Program-made: the position numbers and the translations under genes
The notes under the pieces: generated by a model
Told to the model about the DNA's origin: nothing
Database searches by the model: none
What the model saw: the letters and a program-made list of their open reading frames with translations, nothing else
Part shown: positions 1-13,065 of the stretch, in pieces
How the letters are laid out: the number at the start of each line of letters is the position of its first letter
Numbering within the stretch: position 1 is the stretch's first letter
Assembly (NCBI RefSeq): GCF_024171815.1
Contig: NZ_JAMTCJ010000001.1
Coordinates: 186,001 to 250,000, forward strand
DNA length: 64,000 nt
Source: Williamsia maris
Lineage (GTDB): Bacteria; Actinomycetota; Actinomycetes; Mycobacteriales; Mycobacteriaceae
Direction of reading: 5' to 3'

Positions 1-75
1 CTGAACCTCGCCAACGCCGCGAGCATCGTCATGTACGAGGCCTGGCGTCAGAACGGTTTCGACGGCGCCGTCTGA
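1..75 (+). CDS. trmL: tRNA 2'-O-methyltransferase TrmL/SpoU family, C-terminal end (partial)
   Basis: Only the last 24 codons are inside the window, ending at TGA 73-75. They read LNLANAASIVMYEAWRQNG and onward, which matches the C-terminal knot segment of SPOUT (TrmH/TrmL) methyltransferases: an SLN(V/L)SNA-type motif followed by a helix ending in YEA(L/W)RQ. The family methylates the 2'-O of the wobble nucleotide of some tRNALeu. In M. tuberculosis the spoU gene lies a few genes from dnaE2, so the position fits. The 5' part is outside the window, so the family is clear from this tail but the exact specificity is not. Confidence 0.7.
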   Translation: MNLANAASIVMYEAWRQNGFDGAV

Positions 76-115: not shown

Positions 116-1402
116 TCACCAGACGACGCGGGATGCCATGTCGAGCAGTTTGTCTCGCCGGGCCGGGCTCGTGGCACCGATCCAGGCGATCTTCCCGTAG
201 ACGTGGGCCCGGAAATCGGCGTGTCCGTCGCGGTTCTGGGCGGCCCCGCCGGTTCGGATCGCATTGTGCAGCAACGCCCGCAGTGCGTCGTGATCGGCGC
301 GCGACACCTGCGGGCGATCGTTGACGACAAGACCCGCGAGACGCTGTTGCTGGTGTGCGTACATGATCCGCGTCTTGGCCGGGTGCACGGTGAAACCCTC
401 GTCGGCGACGACGCGCAGCACGGTCCACAACACCCGATCGGCGTCCATCCGGTCGCCGGAGAGCGCGAGGTCGTCACCGTAGCGGGTGTATCGCAGGTCG
501 TTGCGCGTCGCGAACCCGGCCAGGCGCCGATCCAGACCGCGCAGAACCAAATTCGCGAGGTGCGGCGACGTCGGCGCACCCTGCGGGAGATGGCGCTCGC
601 GCAGGAGGCCGGCGTGGATCGGGTCGAGACCGCGTAACGCATCGGGCGGAGTCGCGGTGGTGCAGAGTTCGGTGAGGATCCGGGCAATCGCCGACGAATA
701 CCCCACTCCGGAGAACACGCGTCGGACCCGTCGGGCGTCGATCGACTCGAAGCAGTGCCGCAGATCGACTCGGAGCACCACCGGACGATCGGTGTGCGGC
801 CACGCGAACGCGGCCGTCGACGATCCACGTACGAATCCGCGAGCGGCCGGATGCGCCGGGATCCGCTCGATCAGACGACGCAGCAGTCGACGCTGGGTCT
901 CGCGCATGCGAGGCTTCGGGGCCTCGATGATCCGGAACCCGTCCCGCTTCTCGACGCGGAACACGCGATAGTGCCGCAACGGTTCTCGCGCCTGACGCAA
1001 CCATCGGCCGCGGTCGGCGAACCATTCGAGCTCGCGGACCGTGAAGTTCAGCCAGTGCGCGAGCTGTTCCACGTCGTAGATGTCGGGCAGGTCCTCGGGG
1101 ACCCGACCGGTCGATGCGGGTTCGGCGAGCACGAGGACGGTAGGCGGCGGCGGCTCGACGACCGGAGGCGCGACCGTCCAATCACGCAACGCTGCGACGA
1201 TTCGGCTCTCGATGTCATGCTCATTGGCGTCATCGGTTTCGACGCCGAACAATCGTTGCCCCACCGAGTCGGCGAGCTCCGCCCTCACACCGGCACCGAT
1301 GAGGGCGCGCTGCATTTCCGGCCAGGTCCATCCGGTGAGATGGGCGTCGACGTACGAGGCGATCTCAGCGGCCTCCTCTATCGAGAACTCCGGCTCATCC
1401 AC
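116..1402 (-). CDS. Retron-type reverse transcriptase with N-terminal extension
   Basis: RNA-directed DNA polymerase of the retron/group II-like branch. Numbering from GTG at 1402, residues about 212-218 are VDLRHCF (motif A), 272-280 are LPQGAPTSP, 308-311 are YGDD (catalytic motif C), and 355-361 are LAGLVVN (the VTG-region position of retron RTs). Upstream of motif A, HYRVFRVEKRDGFRII and QRRLLRRLI look like standard RT fingers. There are no maturase or endonuclease domains. About 75 N-terminal residues plus a proline-rich linker precede the usual retron RT start (IYDVEQLAHWLNF), which is an unusual extension. A longer reading from GTG 1489 runs through the structured RNA upstream and is Arg-rich, so 1402 is preferred (428 aa). 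No strong ribosome binding site is seen. The gene follows dnaE2 and is preceded by a retron-like ncRNA. Confidence 0.9.
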   Translation of the reverse strand: MDEPEFSIEEAAEIASYVDAHLTGWTWPEMQRALIGAGVRAELADSVGQRLFGVETDDANEHDIESRIVAALRDWTVAPPVVEPPPPTVLVLAEPASTGRVPEDLPDIYDVEQLAHWLNFTVRELEWFADRGRWLRQAREPLRHYRVFRVEKRDGFRIIEAPKPRMRETQRRLLRRLIERIPAHPAARGFVRGSSTAAFAWPHTDRPVVLRVDLRHCFESIDARRVRRVFSGVGYSSAIARILTELCTTATPPDALRGLDPIHAGLLRERHLPQGAPTSPHLANLVLRGLDRRLAGFATRNDLRYTRYGDDLALSGDRMDADRVLWTVLRVVADEGFTVHPAKTRIMYAHQQQRLAGLVVNDRPQVSRADHDALRALLHNAIRTGGAAQNRDGHADFRAHVYGKIAWIGATSPARRDKLLDMASRVVW

Positions 1403-1433
1403 GCGCGAACCCGGGCACGATCGACGACGAAGT

Positions 1434-1602
1434 GGCGATGGACCGCGGGCGAGGTGACCAGCAACTCGTGAAGCGGCGCCGCGAAGCACGCGCAGCGTGC
1501 CGTCCGGCGTCGGACGCAGGGACCAACTGTGCGGTGTACCCAGGGGTTACCCCTGAGACGGGTCGTGACGACCCACTCTCACCTCGCCCGCCGTCCATCG
1601 CC
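1434..1602 (-). ncRNA. Putative retron msr-msd RNA
   Basis: Reading the minus strand, the 5' arm (1602 to 1579) and the 3' arm (1457 to 1434) are complementary over 24 nt with a single mismatch (1592 versus 1444). This is the a1/a2 pairing expected of a retron. Just inside a1 the RNA continues with G (1578), the position of the 2',5'-branching guanosine in known retrons. The 121-nt interior holds perfect hairpins: GGGTCG/CGACCC at 1560-1574, CAGGG/CCCTG at 1541-1555, CGTCCG/CGGACG at 1501-1516 and GCACGC/GCGTGC at 1486-1500. The first two would be msr stem-loops and the rest msd. The RNA starts about 20 nt after the dnaE2 stop and ends 31 nt before the RT start. Arms and hairpins are read directly. 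The retron assignment is inference from layout and the adjacent RT. Confidence 0.82.
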
Positions 1603-1622
1603 CACGATGGTGCCACGGACGA

Positions 1623-4600
1623 TCACTGCCAGTCGCGGGATCGGGTACCGACCTTGAGGTCGAGCCGTTGCAGATGTTCGGCCACGACGGTGACCGCACC
1701 CTCGGCGTTCTGCACCGTTCCGCGGATCATCAGGGCCGTCGCGCTCTGGGCGAGCTTGCGATACCGCTTCCACAATCCGACCGAACAGACGACATTGACC
1801 ATGCCGGTCTCGTCCTCGAGGTTGATGAACGTGACCCCCGAGGCGGTGGCCGGTCGTTGACGGTGGGTGACGGCGCCCGCGACGAGCACCCGGGATCCGT
1901 CGCGCACCGACAGCAACCCGTCGGCCGGGACGACGCCCATCGCCGACAGCCGAGGTCGCAGGAACTGCGTCGGGTAGACCGTCGGCGTCACGCCGGTGGC
2001 CCACGCATCGGCCGCGGCGAGTTCGACGTCGGTCATGCCGGGCAGCGTCGGCGCCACACCCGACGCCTGCAACGCCAGATGATCGGCCCGCTCCAACGAC
2101 GCCGCACCCGCGTCCCACAGCGCCTGTCGACGGGTTCCGCCGAAGCAGTCGAATGCGCCTGCGGTGGCGAGCGCCTCGAGCTGGCGTTCGCTCAGCTCGG
2201 CGCGGCGAGCGAGGTCGGCCGGGCTGCGGTACGGACCGTCGGCCACCCGGCGGTCGACGACGAGTTGTGCGACCTCGTCGCCGATGTGTCGGACCGAACC
2301 GAGCGCCATCCGGACGTCGAGCCCGTCGTTCTCCAGGTTCGCGTGGGCCAGGGAGAGGTTGATGTCGGGACCGTGCACGCGGACACCGTGTCGGCGGGCG
2401 TCGGCCACCAGCGACTGCGGCGAATAGAACCCCATCGGCTGCGCCCGTAGCAGCGCCGCGCAGAACGCCGCGGGGTGGTGCAGCTTGAACCACGACGAGT
2501 AGAAGACCAGCGCGGCGAAACTCTGCGAATGACTCTCGGGGAAACCGAAGTTGGCGAAGGCGGCCATCTTCTCGAAGACGCGGTCGGCCACGTCGCCGAC
2601 GATGCCGTGGGTCTGCTCCATACCGGCATAGAACCGCTCCTTGAGGAGTTGCATCTTCTCCGGCGAGCGCTTCGACCCCATCGCGCGACGCAGCTGATCG
2701 GCCTCGGCCGCGTCGAAGCCTGCGACGTCGACGGCCAACTGCATCAGCTGCTCCTGGAACAGCGGCACACCCAGCGTGCGCTCCAGCGCGGTCTTCATCG
2801 ACGGGTGCTCGTAACTGGTGACCTCGAGCCCGTTGCGACGGCGGATGTAGGGGTGCACCGACCCGCCCTGGATGGGACCGGGGCGAATCAGCGCCACCTC
2901 CACCACCAGGTCGTAGAACCGTCTCGGCTTGAGCCTCGGCAGCGTCGCCATCTGCGCGCGCGACTCCACCTGGAAGACACCGACCGAGTCGGCGGCGCAG
3001 AGCATGTCGTACACCGCGGTCTCCGCGAGGTCGATCCGGGCGAGGTCGACGTGGATGTCCTTGTGCTCGGCGACGAGGTCGATGGCGTAATGCAGCGCCG
3101 AGAGCATGCCGAGCCCGAGCAGATCGAACTTCACCAGACCGATTGCGGCACAGTCGTCCTTGTCCCACTGCAACACGCTGCGGCCGGCCATCCGGGCCCA
3201 CTCGGTCGGACACACGTCGGCGATGGGGCGATCACAGATGACCATCCCCCCGGAATGGATCCCGAGATGTCGCGGCATGCCCGCGATCTGCCCGGCCAGG
3301 TCCATGACGTCGTCAGGGACTTCGTGCTCCGGGTTCTCCTCCTCGTCGACGGTGCGCCCCCACCGGCTGACCTGCTTGCTCCACGCGTCCTGCTGGCCGA
3401 TCGAATAGCCCAGTGCGCGAGCCATGTCCCGCACCGACGACCGCCCGCGGTAGGTGATGACGTTGGCGACCTGCGCGCTGTACTCACGGCCATACCTGGC
3501 GTACACGTGCTGGATGGCCTCCTCGCGCCGATCGGACTCGATGTCGACGTCGATGTCGGGCGGACCGTCCCGCTCGGGGGACAGGAAGCGCTCGAACAGC
3601 AGACTGTTGCGCACCGGGTCGACGTTGGTGACCCCGAGCGCGTAACAGACCGCGGAGTTCGCGGCACTCCCCCGGCCCTGACACAGGATGTCGGAGCGTT
3701 TGCAGAAGTCGACGATGTCGTGGACGACCAGGAAGTACCCGGGGAAGTTCAGCGAGTTGATGACCGCGAGCTCGTGTTCGATCTGCCTGTACGCCTTCGG
3801 GTTCGACGTCGGCGGCCCGTAGCGGTTCGCGGCGCCTGCCATCGTGAGATGGCGTAGCCACGATTTCTCGGTGTGCCCGTTCGGGACATCGAACGGCGGG
3901 AGTTCCGGTGCGATCAGGCGCAACTCGAAGGCGCAGTCGCGACCGATCTGCGCCGAGTTGTCGATGGCCTCGGGGTGGGCGGCCAGCAACCGCGCCATCT
4001 CGTCGCCGCTGCGCAGGTGGGCACCGCCCACCGGACCGAGCCATCCGGCGATCTCGTCGAGACTCGCCCTGGCGCGCACCGCGGCCATGGCCATCGCGAG
4101 TCGGCGGCGGTCGGGGCCCGCGAAGTGGGCACCGGTGGTGGCGACGGTGACGAGACCGTGTGCCGCAGCCAGTTCGGCGAGGGCGGCGTTGCGTTCGTCG
4201 TCGGTCGGCATGGACTGGGTGGTGAGTTCGACGGCGACGTTGTCACGGCCGAATCGATCGACCAGCAGCCGCAGTTCGTGTGCGGCCGCCTCGGGCCCCC
4301 GGGTGGCCAGGGCCTGGCGCACAGTCCCCTTGCGGCACCCGGTGAGGATGAGCCACGACCCGTCGGCGGCGGTGGCCAACTCGTCCATGTCGTAGCGCAG
4401 CAGACCTTTCTCACCGGCCGCCATGTGTGCGGCGGCCATCTGCCGCGACAGCCGCCGGTACCCGTCCTGCCCCCTGGCCAGCACGAGCAGATGACTGCCC
4501 TCCGGGTCGTTGACGCCGGTACGTGCCGCGTCGTGCTGCATCGACAGTTCGGCGCCGAACACCGTCGGCAGTCGCCACTCGCGGGCGGCCTCGGCGAACC

Positions 4601-4922
4601 GGACCACACCGTAGAAACCGTCGTGATCGGTGACGGCGAGCGCCTCGAGTCCGAGTCGGTGCGCCTCGGTGACCATCTCCTCGGGCGAGCTGGCGCCGTC
4701 GAGGAAGCTGTAGGAGGTGTGCGCATGCAGTTCGGCGTAGCGCGTCGTGCTCCGCCCCCGCGCGCTGTCGTCGGCCTGGAACGGGTCACGCTTCCGGGAC
4801 CAGGCGGGGCTGTCGCCACCGTCGCCGGGGAACGTCTCGCCCGGCCGCCCACCGTTGTTCGGGCGCCCGGACAGCACCCGCTCCATCTCCGCCCAGGTGG
4901 GCGGGCCCTCGTTCCAACCCAC
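1623..4922 (-). CDS. dnaE2: Error-prone DNA polymerase III alpha subunit DnaE2
   Basis: C-family polymerase of the SOS mutasome, which does translesion synthesis and damage-induced mutagenesis with ImuA' and ImuB. The N-terminal PHP domain begins near residue 62 with the HAHTSYSFLDG metal-binding motif. The catalytic segment PDIDVDIESDRR is intact, and the C-terminal OB fold reads GVTFINLEDETGMVNVV. Length is 1099 aa from GTG 4922, normal for the family. I chose that start because VGWNEGPPTWAEMERVL matches the usual DnaE2 N-terminus, and because the longer reading would cross the SOS box and the divergent promoter. A LexA-type box lies 19 nt upstream. The retron RNA and RT gene follow 20 nt after the stop and are probably on the same transcript. 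Confidence 0.95.
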   Translation of the reverse strand: MGWNEGPPTWAEMERVLSGRPNNGGRPGETFPGDGGDSPAWSRKRDPFQADDSARGRSTTRYAELHAHTSYSFLDGASSPEEMVTEAHRLGLEALAVTDHDGFYGVVRFAEAAREWRLPTVFGAELSMQHDAARTGVNDPEGSHLLVLARGQDGYRRLSRQMAAAHMAAGEKGLLRYDMDELATAADGSWLILTGCRKGTVRQALATRGPEAAAHELRLLVDRFGRDNVAVELTTQSMPTDDERNAALAELAAAHGLVTVATTGAHFAGPDRRRLAMAMAAVRARASLDEIAGWLGPVGGAHLRSGDEMARLLAAHPEAIDNSAQIGRDCAFELRLIAPELPPFDVPNGHTEKSWLRHLTMAGAANRYGPPTSNPKAYRQIEHELAVINSLNFPGYFLVVHDIVDFCKRSDILCQGRGSAANSAVCYALGVTNVDPVRNSLLFERFLSPERDGPPDIDVDIESDRREEAIQHVYARYGREYSAQVANVITYRGRSSVRDMARALGYSIGQQDAWSKQVSRWGRTVDEEENPEHEVPDDVMDLAGQIAGMPRHLGIHSGGMVICDRPIADVCPTEWARMAGRSVLQWDKDDCAAIGLVKFDLLGLGMLSALHYAIDLVAEHKDIHVDLARIDLAETAVYDMLCAADSVGVFQVESRAQMATLPRLKPRRFYDLVVEVALIRPGPIQGGSVHPYIRRRNGLEVTSYEHPSMKTALERTLGVPLFQEQLMQLAVDVAGFDAAEADQLRRAMGSKRSPEKMQLLKERFYAGMEQTHGIVGDVADRVFEKMAAFANFGFPESHSQSFAALVFYSSWFKLHHPAAFCAALLRAQPMGFYSPQSLVADARRHGVRVHGPDINLSLAHANLENDGLDVRMALGSVRHIGDEVAQLVVDRRVADGPYRSPADLARRAELSERQLEALATAGAFDCFGGTRRQALWDAGAASLERADHLALQASGVAPTLPGMTDVELAAADAWATGVTPTVYPTQFLRPRLSAMGVVPADGLLSVRDGSRVLVAGAVTHRQRPATASGVTFINLEDETGMVNVVCSVGLWKRYRKLAQSATALMIRGTVQNAEGAVTVVAEHLQRLDLKVGTRSRDWQ

Positions 4923-4940
4923 ACCCGATGGTAGCGGGAT

Positions 4941-4956
4941 TCGAACACATATTCGA
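4941..4956 (-). promoter_or_regulatory. LexA/SOS box of dnaE2
   Basis: TCGAAC-ACAT-ATTCGA matches the actinobacterial SOS box TCGAAC-N4-GTTCGA at 11 of 12 defined positions. It lies 19 nt upstream of the dnaE2 GTG and 18 bp from the -10 of the divergent transporter gene. Confidence 0.75.
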
Positions 4957-4973
4957 CCCGGTTCGGCCCGGTT

Positions 4974-4979
4974 TAGTCT
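4974..4979 (+). promoter_or_regulatory. -10 element TAGTCT, leaderless transporter gene
   Basis: TAGTCT ends 7 nt before the ATG at 4987, so the transcript should start at or near the start codon. This supports 4987 over longer readings of the frame. Confidence 0.5.
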
Positions 4980-4986
4980 GTTGCCC

Positions 4987-5967
4987 ATGCATGCCCCGTG
5001 GCCCGGACGCGGGGTCGTCGCCACCCTCGAGCGGTTCCAGATCTCGTTCTATCTGCTGGCCCTGGCCGTGGGTGCCGCGCTCGGCCTGGCCGCCCCGGGC
5101 GCGGCTCCGACCGTCGAACACGCGATCAACCCCGCGTTGATCGTCCTGCTGTACGCCACGTTCCTGGCCGTGCCGTTCGCACGGATCGGCGCCGCTCTGC
5201 GCGACGTCCGCTTCCTCGTCGGCACCGTGGTCCTGAACTTCGCCCTCGTCCCGATCGTGGTGTTCGCGCTCACGCGGTTCGTCGCCGACGATCGGGCCGT
5301 ACTCGTCGGCGCCGTCCTCGTGCTGTGCGCGCCATGCATCGACTACGTGATCGTCTTCAGCGGACTCGCCGGTGCGGCGTCCGAGCGACTCCTCGCCGGT
5401 GCACCTGCGCTGATGCTGCTGCAGATCGTGCTGCTCCCGCTCTACCTCTGGTTGTTCGTGGGCGCGGACGTGGTGGACACGATCGAGATCGCGCCGTTCG
5501 TCGAGGCCTTCGTGATCCTGATCGTCGTACCGATGGCCCTCGCCGCGACCACCCAGGCGCTCGCGCGTCGGCATCGGTTCGCCACGGCGGTCACCGAAGC
5601 GATGGCGGCGGGGATGGTCCCGATCATGATGGTGACGCTGGCCGTCGTCGTCGCCTCGCAGATCGACGCCGTCCGTACGCGCTGGGCCGACCTCGTCGGC
5701 GCCGCCACCGTCTTCGTCGCCTTCCTGGTGGTCATGGCCGTCCTCGGACGCGCCGCGGCAGCCGTCGCCCGACTCGACGTCCCCGCCGGTCGCGCTCTCG
5801 TGTTCTCCGGTGCCACCCGCAACTCGCTGGTGGTGCTACCGCTCGCGCTGGCCCTGCCGTCAGCCCTGGCCCCGGCGCCGGTCGTGGTGGTCACGCAGAC
5901 ACTGGTCGAGTTGATCGGGATGATCGCCTACGTCCGACTCGTCCCCCGCCTGATCCCGGCCGACTGA
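4987..5967 (+). CDS. Arsenic-resistance/bile acid:sodium symporter family membrane transporter
   Basis: Integral membrane protein of 326 aa with about ten hydrophobic segments, starting FQISFYLLALAVGAALGL. The segment APCIDYVIVFSGLAGAASERLLAG carries the Pro-Cys pair seen in the ACR3/SBF superfamily, where a conserved Cys is needed for arsenite export. The nearest annotation type is the actinobacterial arsenic-resistance, ArsB/ACR3-like branch of bile acid:sodium symporters. No ArsR or arsenate reductase gene lies nearby, so the substrate cannot be set from context. It is transcribed divergently from dnaE2 across a 64-bp gap, and a -10 hexamer 7 nt before ATG 4987 suggests leaderless translation. 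Confidence 0.75.
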   Translation: MHAPWPGRGVVATLERFQISFYLLALAVGAALGLAAPGAAPTVEHAINPALIVLLYATFLAVPFARIGAALRDVRFLVGTVVLNFALVPIVVFALTRFVADDRAVLVGAVLVLCAPCIDYVIVFSGLAGAASERLLAGAPALMLLQIVLLPLYLWLFVGADVVDTIEIAPFVEAFVILIVVPMALAATTQALARRHRFATAVTEAMAAGMVPIMMVTLAVVVASQIDAVRTRWADLVGAATVFVAFLVVMAVLGRAAAAVARLDVPAGRALVFSGATRNSLVVLPLALALPSALAPAPVVVVTQTLVELIGMIAYVRLVPRLIPAD

Positions 5968-13049: not shown

Positions 13050-13065
13050 TCGAACATGTTTTCGA
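13050..13065 (-). promoter_or_regulatory. LexA/SOS box of imuA'-imuB
   Basis: TCGAAC-ATGT-TTTCGA fits TCGAAC-N4-GTTCGA with one mismatch and lies 70 bp upstream of imuA'. The rest of the 157-bp gap (12980-13136) shows no other gene. Confidence 0.75.

Follow-up and report, generated by a model that had tools for sequence, protein, structure and literature searches.

The gap between dnaE2 and a trmL/SpoU-type methylase gene in Williamsia maris, which belongs to a genus of soil bacteria, holds an element that by its anatomy is very probably (roughly 0.9) a retron, complete-looking and minimal. On the minus strand of the window (the whole 64-kb stretch of DNA that was analysed) the order is dnaE2, a structured RNA (1602-1434) and a reverse transcriptase (RT) gene (1402-116), after which comes the convergent 3' end of the methylase gene; the RNA starts 20 nt past the dnaE2 stop on the same strand. 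The element has the a1/a2 closure, hairpins in both msr and msd and an invariant G, and so bears out the a1-msr-msd-a2-RT order of known retrons put forward in the original prediction. The features of the locus are:

1..75, plus strand: 3' end of the trmL/SpoU-type methylase gene, convergent downstream neighbour, outside the retron
116..1402, minus strand: retron-type RT of 428 aa (PADLOC, Pfam RVT_1), with about 100 N-terminal aa without known fold
1434..1457, minus strand: a2 arm, pairing with a1; GTC at its inner end invariant (25/25)
1478..1508, minus strand: msd stem-loop (GCCG...GCACG...CGTGC...CGGC), predicted template of the DNA strand; helices 6 and 7, with 96.0% and 99.2% of alignment cells paired
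1541..1555, minus strand: msr stem-loop 2 (CAGGGGTAACCCCTG), helix 5
1560..1574, minus strand: msr stem-loop 1 (GGGTCGTCACGACCC), helices 3 and 4, with compensatory changes
1578, minus strand: predicted priming (branch) guanosine, G in 25/25, within the invariant GAG at the inner end of a1
1579..1602, minus strand: a1 arm of the msr-msd RNA, complementary to a2 at 23 of 24 positions; compensatory changes in 11 of the 15 a1/a2 pairs counted
1607..1615, minus strand: TGGCACCAT, conserved and promoter-like (putative extended -10), just upstream of a1 and starting 7 nt past the dnaE2 stop
1623..5024, minus strand: dnaE2, error-prone DNA polymerase (NCBIfam PRK05672, 1559.9 bits, cut-off 939), upstream neighbour, outside the retron

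The flanking genes had been called dnaE2 and trmL; the first identification stands well above its cut-off, while the second holds as SpoU-type, with Pfam SpoU above its cut-off and the TrmL models below theirs for the partial chain used as query. A scan with the mycobacterial SOS box consensus placed one-mismatch LexA-like boxes at 4941-4956, just upstream of dnaE2, and at 13050-13065. Such patterns are above chance across the whole window (14 against 4.4 expected), so the single box before dnaE2 says little.

Structure of the msr-msd RNA

The two arms, 1602-1579 and 1457-1434 on the minus strand, are separated by 121 nt and pair at 23 of 24 positions as predicted; when the window was scanned for 24-nt arms with a span of at most 248 nt, they were the sole pair with at least 20 matches, and so are unique at that quality within the 64 kb. 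The dnaE2-RT gap had been described as non-random, and folding agrees: the minus-strand RNA of 1434-1602 reaches -107 kcal/mol, 6.3 SD better than its shuffles (-78.6 ± 4.5 kcal/mol; z -6.3; 0 of 200 as low). The guanosine expected just inside a1 is present at 1578 and is a G in all 25 aligned relatives. This predicted priming base sits as described for known retrons in PMC6868368, within GAGA, which differs from the commonest sequence, TAGC.

Three of the four hairpins originally proposed (1560-1574, 1541-1555 and 1486-1500) are supported by relatives, in which 97.0% (helix 3), 98.0% (helix 5) and 99.2% (helix 7) of their cells are paired. The fourth, 1501-1516, is a possible fold of the W. 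maris sequence but is unconserved, with its six pairs kept in just 11 to 21 of the 25 relatives. What is conserved is the pairing of 1505-1508 with 1478-1481, each pair being kept in 22 to 25 of the 25, so that the msd forms a single longer stem, 1508-1478, interrupted by an internal loop. Searches against Rfam 15 returned two sub-threshold matches in the first 2,500 bases of the window (E 1.6 and 2.2), both lying outside the RNA, and one sub-threshold match in four relative loci; no family there fits the RNA.

Conservation of the RNA among relatives

RNAs were extracted upstream of related RT genes at 31 loci (five duplicate records being left unextracted, and L021 showing no clear RNA), and 25 were aligned, the covariation count omitting the distant L016 to L020 and L022, which has a broken RT; the arms at L007, L034 and L014 were set with the help of the conserved hairpin. 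All 25 share a common plan: behind a1 come an invariant GAG and two msr hairpins, then, past a conserved spacer, the msd stem-loop and finally an a2 that opens with an invariant GTC. Of 37 loci, five duplicates included, 35 carry the motif GGGGN[AT]ACCCC close to the RT start or upstream of it, and L011 has a GCGG/CCGC version of msr stem-loop 2.

Across the 39 pairs of the alignment (957 cells), 95.9% of cells are paired, and both sides have changed in a compensatory manner in 22 of the 39 pairs. Double-change cells number 86, compared with 21.9 ± 4.6 in shuffled alignments (0 of 500 as high), and sliding the partners by 1-3 columns lowers pairing to 33.9-46.7% and double-change cells to 7-14. 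Comparison of the arms in related genomes, which had been proposed as a check, thus came out in favour of the RNA: a1 and a2 vary in sequence yet keep their pairing in the 25 aligned relatives. Since some of these loci were picked for the arms found in them, and the structure is the fold of the same alignment, a held-out test with a covariance model weighs more.

The model built from the aligned RNAs was searched on 19 loci outside the alignment; in 15 of them, including L022 with its broken RT, it detected the RNA at E < 0.005, ahead of the RT and on the RT strand. These E-values are rough, coming from a short calibration, and the held-out set includes near relatives of aligned rows (e.g. L099, L100, L108 and L109). 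The weak cases were L103 (E 0.078) and L110 (E 0.81, at chance level, with a better match of E 0.26 inside the RT gene), and the model gave no RNA match at L021 or L104 among these 19; a hairpin and a closed fold are visible by eye at L103, L104 and L110. Applied to 61 genomes, the model gave 16 matches, all among the 22 RT carriers, and none in the 39 RT-less relatives; five of the six RT genomes missed here were recovered in the 19-locus search. In the W. maris genome itself the RT and the RNA each occur at a single place. Relatives with the RT but without conserved arm pairing would have spoken against the element; in general this was not the outcome, given the 25 aligned and 15 of 19 further loci, although L021 showed no matching RNA.

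A conserved element precedes the RNA. Of 27 loci, 17 have TGGCANNNT in the 30 nt before a1, and none of the 27 has it in any of seven 30-nt control blocks lying further up, a count in which the motif was chosen after viewing the sequences and the loci are partly related; it covers 27 of the 31 loci, without L002, L030, L032 and L034. With a looser TGN[CT]ANNNT the count rose to 19 of 27, and each control block had 0 or 1. The element occurs behind differing upstream genes. By general promoter rules, TGGCANNNT would be an extended -10 with transcription starting near the first base of a1; read-through from dnaE2 is also possible.

The reverse transcriptase

The RT frame listed from 1489 runs through the RNA, so the GTG at 1402, after a2, is likely to be the start. 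Both motifs noted originally, YGDD and LPQGAPTSP, are present, and YxDD is found in 39 of 39 related RTs. The best PADLOC matches are RT_other (557.9 bits) and RT_outgroup (532.4), with RT_XIII third at 306.9; RT_other and RT_outgroup are matched by all 39 RTs, and the best 25 of the 64 matching PADLOC families all carry retron RT names. With these top scores on retron RT models, and with the Ec86 retron RT as the closest solved chain (E 1.2e-29), the assignment as a retron RT is upheld. Pfam RVT_1 is matched at E 6e-20 and is the only Pfam family across the 39 RTs except for DUF4853 in one (E 0.0015); no Pfam family was found in residues 1-120 of the W. maris RT. In comparisons with two near relatives the RT core has dN/dS of 0.06 and 0.08, indicating strong purifying selection; evolution is faster in the N-terminal part.

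Two motifs usual in retron RTs are replaced. The window has FAWPH at the place of NAXXH (exact NAXXH in 1 of 39 RTs, F/YAxPH in 26 and the final H in all 39) and LAG at the place of VTG (VTG in 5 of 39, LAG in 24). According to the review PMC6868368, NAXXH and VTG are each present in 14 of 16 validated retron RTs, the other two being substituted at the N of NAXXH. Both motifs are thus common rather than required, and their replacement is a departure, not an exclusion. Among NCBIfam models the best retron model scored 164.6 bits, below its cut-off of 235, and the DRT models Drt2 and Drt3a scored 35.3 (cut-off 390) and 33.0 (cut-off 200).

Extent of the cassette and neighbouring genes

Two same-genus genomes without the cassette have dnaE2-trmL spacings of 4 and 13 nt, and the gap in six occupied loci is 1,487-1,628 nt; at this site the element is therefore the RNA and the RT, with at most some 130 nt more. 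In two W. muralis-like records the gap measures 2,092 and 2,227 nt and contains an additional small ORF that matches no Pfam family. In another genus, L098 (G013) lacks the RT and has a dnaE2-trmL gap of 378 nt, seemingly filled by a different small ORF, so the junction tolerates inserts. All six RT-carrying genomes of the genus have the cassette between dnaE2 and trmL. Counting wherever it occurs, dnaE2 lies upstream in nine loci (one with a broken RT, two near copies) and trmL downstream in eight of these nine. In Gordonia, Rhodococcus, Dietzia and others, the cassette lies among other genes, at unrelated sites.

A recurring neighbour was sought among 113 genes at 19 other RT loci, and none emerged, the commonest Pfam being TetR (4) and no PADLOC family exceeding 2; single neighbours do match defence models, each PADLOC family in 1 or 2 of the 113 genes, HTH_VI and ATPase-Toprim_I-B with one match apiece. 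The scan was made without L030, L037, the dnaE2-site loci, the loci of the class-wide search and those on plasmid records, and its genes come from a home-made codon-score caller, which can miss short genes and called few in L046. Taking the empty sites, these 19 contexts and the 39 RTs together, no effector gene or fused effector domain was recognised with the cassette. The anti-phage role stated for retrons in general finds no support here, because no recurring effector gene accompanies the cassette.

Distribution and movement

Counting the W. maris genome each time, the RT is present in 6 of 8 genomes of the genus, in 22 of 61 relatives (E ≤ 1e-20) and in 13 of 394 genomes of the class (E ≤ 1e-40). 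Plasmid searches gave 37 records at E ≤ 1e-15, mostly distant, of which the best is a Dietzia plasmid (58.7%) that also has the RNA; on this plasmid, pII, RNA and RT (L108:2856-4298) lie between merA and a transposase gene. An 880-kb Burkholderia plasmid carries a related RT (45.8% identity) between ordinary genes, with a similar-looking RNA upstream for which the covariance model gives no support. Among 50,697 phage records, 7 matched at E ≤ 1e-10, all distant RTs of 26-33% identity, and viral contigs, scanned by pattern, had none.

The dnaE2-site RTs are not supported as one clade, as the 39-RT tree needs 3 label changes, at least 2 of them forced by starred branches. The tree thus splits the dnaE2-site copies, so moves, losses or replacements have occurred; one origin at the dnaE2 site with later moves is possible.

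Several records deserve separate mention. One related genome (L022:1044-1230 and L054) keeps dnaE2 and the msr-msd RNA beside a short RT remnant, apparently a dying retron. L034 bears the name Kitasatospora arboriphila, but its layout is that of Williamsia muralis and its RT is nearly identical to the one of that species; it is probably a mislabelled assembly. L109 (NZ_LR134447.1), a Tsukamurella 'plasmid' record, has polA and rpsA around the retron, and the record therefore looks like a chromosome.

Proposed mechanism and alternative explanations

By analogy with known retrons, we infer with high confidence that the cassette makes msDNA. The RNA would be made from the putative promoter just 5' of a1, and its two ends would pair through a1 and a2, as the covariation shows. 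The RT gene follows on the same strand after a few tens of bases; its product would, as in known retrons, bind the msr hairpins and prime from the 2'-OH of G1578, and the msd stem-loop would be copied from 1458, the base just 5' of a2. The predicted product is a short DNA of perhaps 60-70 nt that would stay joined to the msr RNA.

The notion of another RT system with a structured upstream RNA, such as a DRT, draws on the replacement of NAXXH and VTG in most of these RTs, but we regard it as very improbable, given that each of the top 25 among the 64 matching PADLOC families is a retron RT by name, that the NCBIfam retron model far outscores Drt2 and Drt3a (164.6 bits against 35.3 and 33.0), and that a1/a2 closure, msr/msd hairpins and an invariant G make up the retron plan. 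A decayed relic kept by chance, as might be read from the L022/L054 genome with its RNA and broken RT and from the two same-genus genomes lacking the element, is harder still to credit for a cassette with an intact frame, RT-core dN/dS of 0.06 and 0.08 and compensatory changes in its RNA.

What the retron does is a separate matter. It might be a tripartite defence retron with its effector in trans, the RNA and RT acting, like those of known retrons, as antitoxin and sensor, a reading of function compatible with the anatomy and one to which we give somewhat less than even odds: a defence library's retron models recognise these RTs, and the patchy distribution (6/8, 22/61, 13/394) and the Dietzia plasmid copy are as for defence genes, but no effector recurs in 113 genes of 19 contexts, and all six carriers in the genus share the same dnaE2 junction. 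That junction could point to a stress-linked retron, in which read-through raises the cassette after DNA damage and the msDNA binds a DNA-binding or repair protein. The RNA begins on the same strand close behind dnaE2, a one-mismatch LexA-like box (4941-4956) precedes that gene, and dnaE2 and trmL flank the cassette repeatedly (nine loci and eight of nine). Against this stand the unrelated sites elsewhere, the conserved element of its own before a1, the excess of LexA-like patterns in the window (14 against 4.4) and, in 29 of 31 loci, no LexA-like box (≤2 mismatches) within 400 nt upstream of a1; we therefore consider it improbable. Turning from the rivals to the msDNA, it may, at a little under an even chance, work with a partner encoded elsewhere in the genome; comparable weight goes to a role not tied to an adjacent toxin, the dnaE2-linked stress idea included; and action through the RT's own N-terminal part seems unlikely, although less so than the stress-linked reading taken alone. 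Tentatively, and with a shade more reserve than for the first two, we suggest that widespread two-part retrons (RNA and RT, with their own promoter and no effector) exist in Actinomycetota, perhaps reaching Burkholderia, in which msDNA or the RT N-terminal part would be the working product, the function would be other than toxin control, and a bare unit of about 1.5 kb would move between sites and genomes.

Relation to known retrons and significance

The original prediction knew of no description of this element. For the RNA and the cassette this holds in the literature searched, and for the RT it does not, since its clade is in PADLOC as RT_other and RT_outgroup and is thus not unknown at the RT level. 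These matches span nearly the whole RT, including part of the N-terminal stretch; the two are RT model names, presumably linked to the Mestre et al. 2020 classification, and in the literature searched come with no RNA, partner or function. The type XIII retron RTs (RT_XIII), the third-best match, score some 250 bits less than RT_other. The solved RT nearest by sequence is that of Retron-Eco1 (Ec86), a tripartite defence retron with the same order msr, msd, RT; it has an adjacent effector gene, and none lies beside the Williamsia cassette.

Myxobacterial retrons such as Mxa1 and Mxa2 are not known to have an effector. They belong to a different phylum and are likened here to the Williamsia cassette by description only: according to PMC6868368, Mxa1 (Mx162) and Mxa2 (Mx65) have an N-terminal RT extension, as here, and in Mxa2 the bases around the priming G read GAGC and the N of NAXXH is replaced, which resembles the present element on both points. 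Evidence of vertical inheritance of myxobacterial retrons is mentioned in PMC8867640. Retrons without a known partner are on record in PMC8934634 and PMC12548924, the latter giving Retron-Bth1 as having no obvious effector, so lacking a known partner does not by itself make a cassette new; compared with those cases, the absence here is backed by empty sites and 19 further contexts. Surveys list putative retrons in Actinobacteria (PMC6868368), and in a paper on a Rhodococcus ruber genome the label retron-type polymerase is given (PMC6498646). A literature search found no retron paper for the genus, and the RNA and cassette were undescribed in the literature covered (Actinobacteria/Actinomycetota, related genera and effector-less retrons); the 2020 classification or a 2024 census may list the RNA of this clade.

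Recent papers present retrons as three-part phage defence systems of RNA, RT and effector. In the present family, RNA and RT are under selection at many unrelated sites with nothing else recurring, which makes the msDNA's own role directly testable, and the same-genus genomes with empty sites provide natural controls. A compact cassette from high-G+C actinobacteria might also serve for single-stranded DNA production in such hosts.
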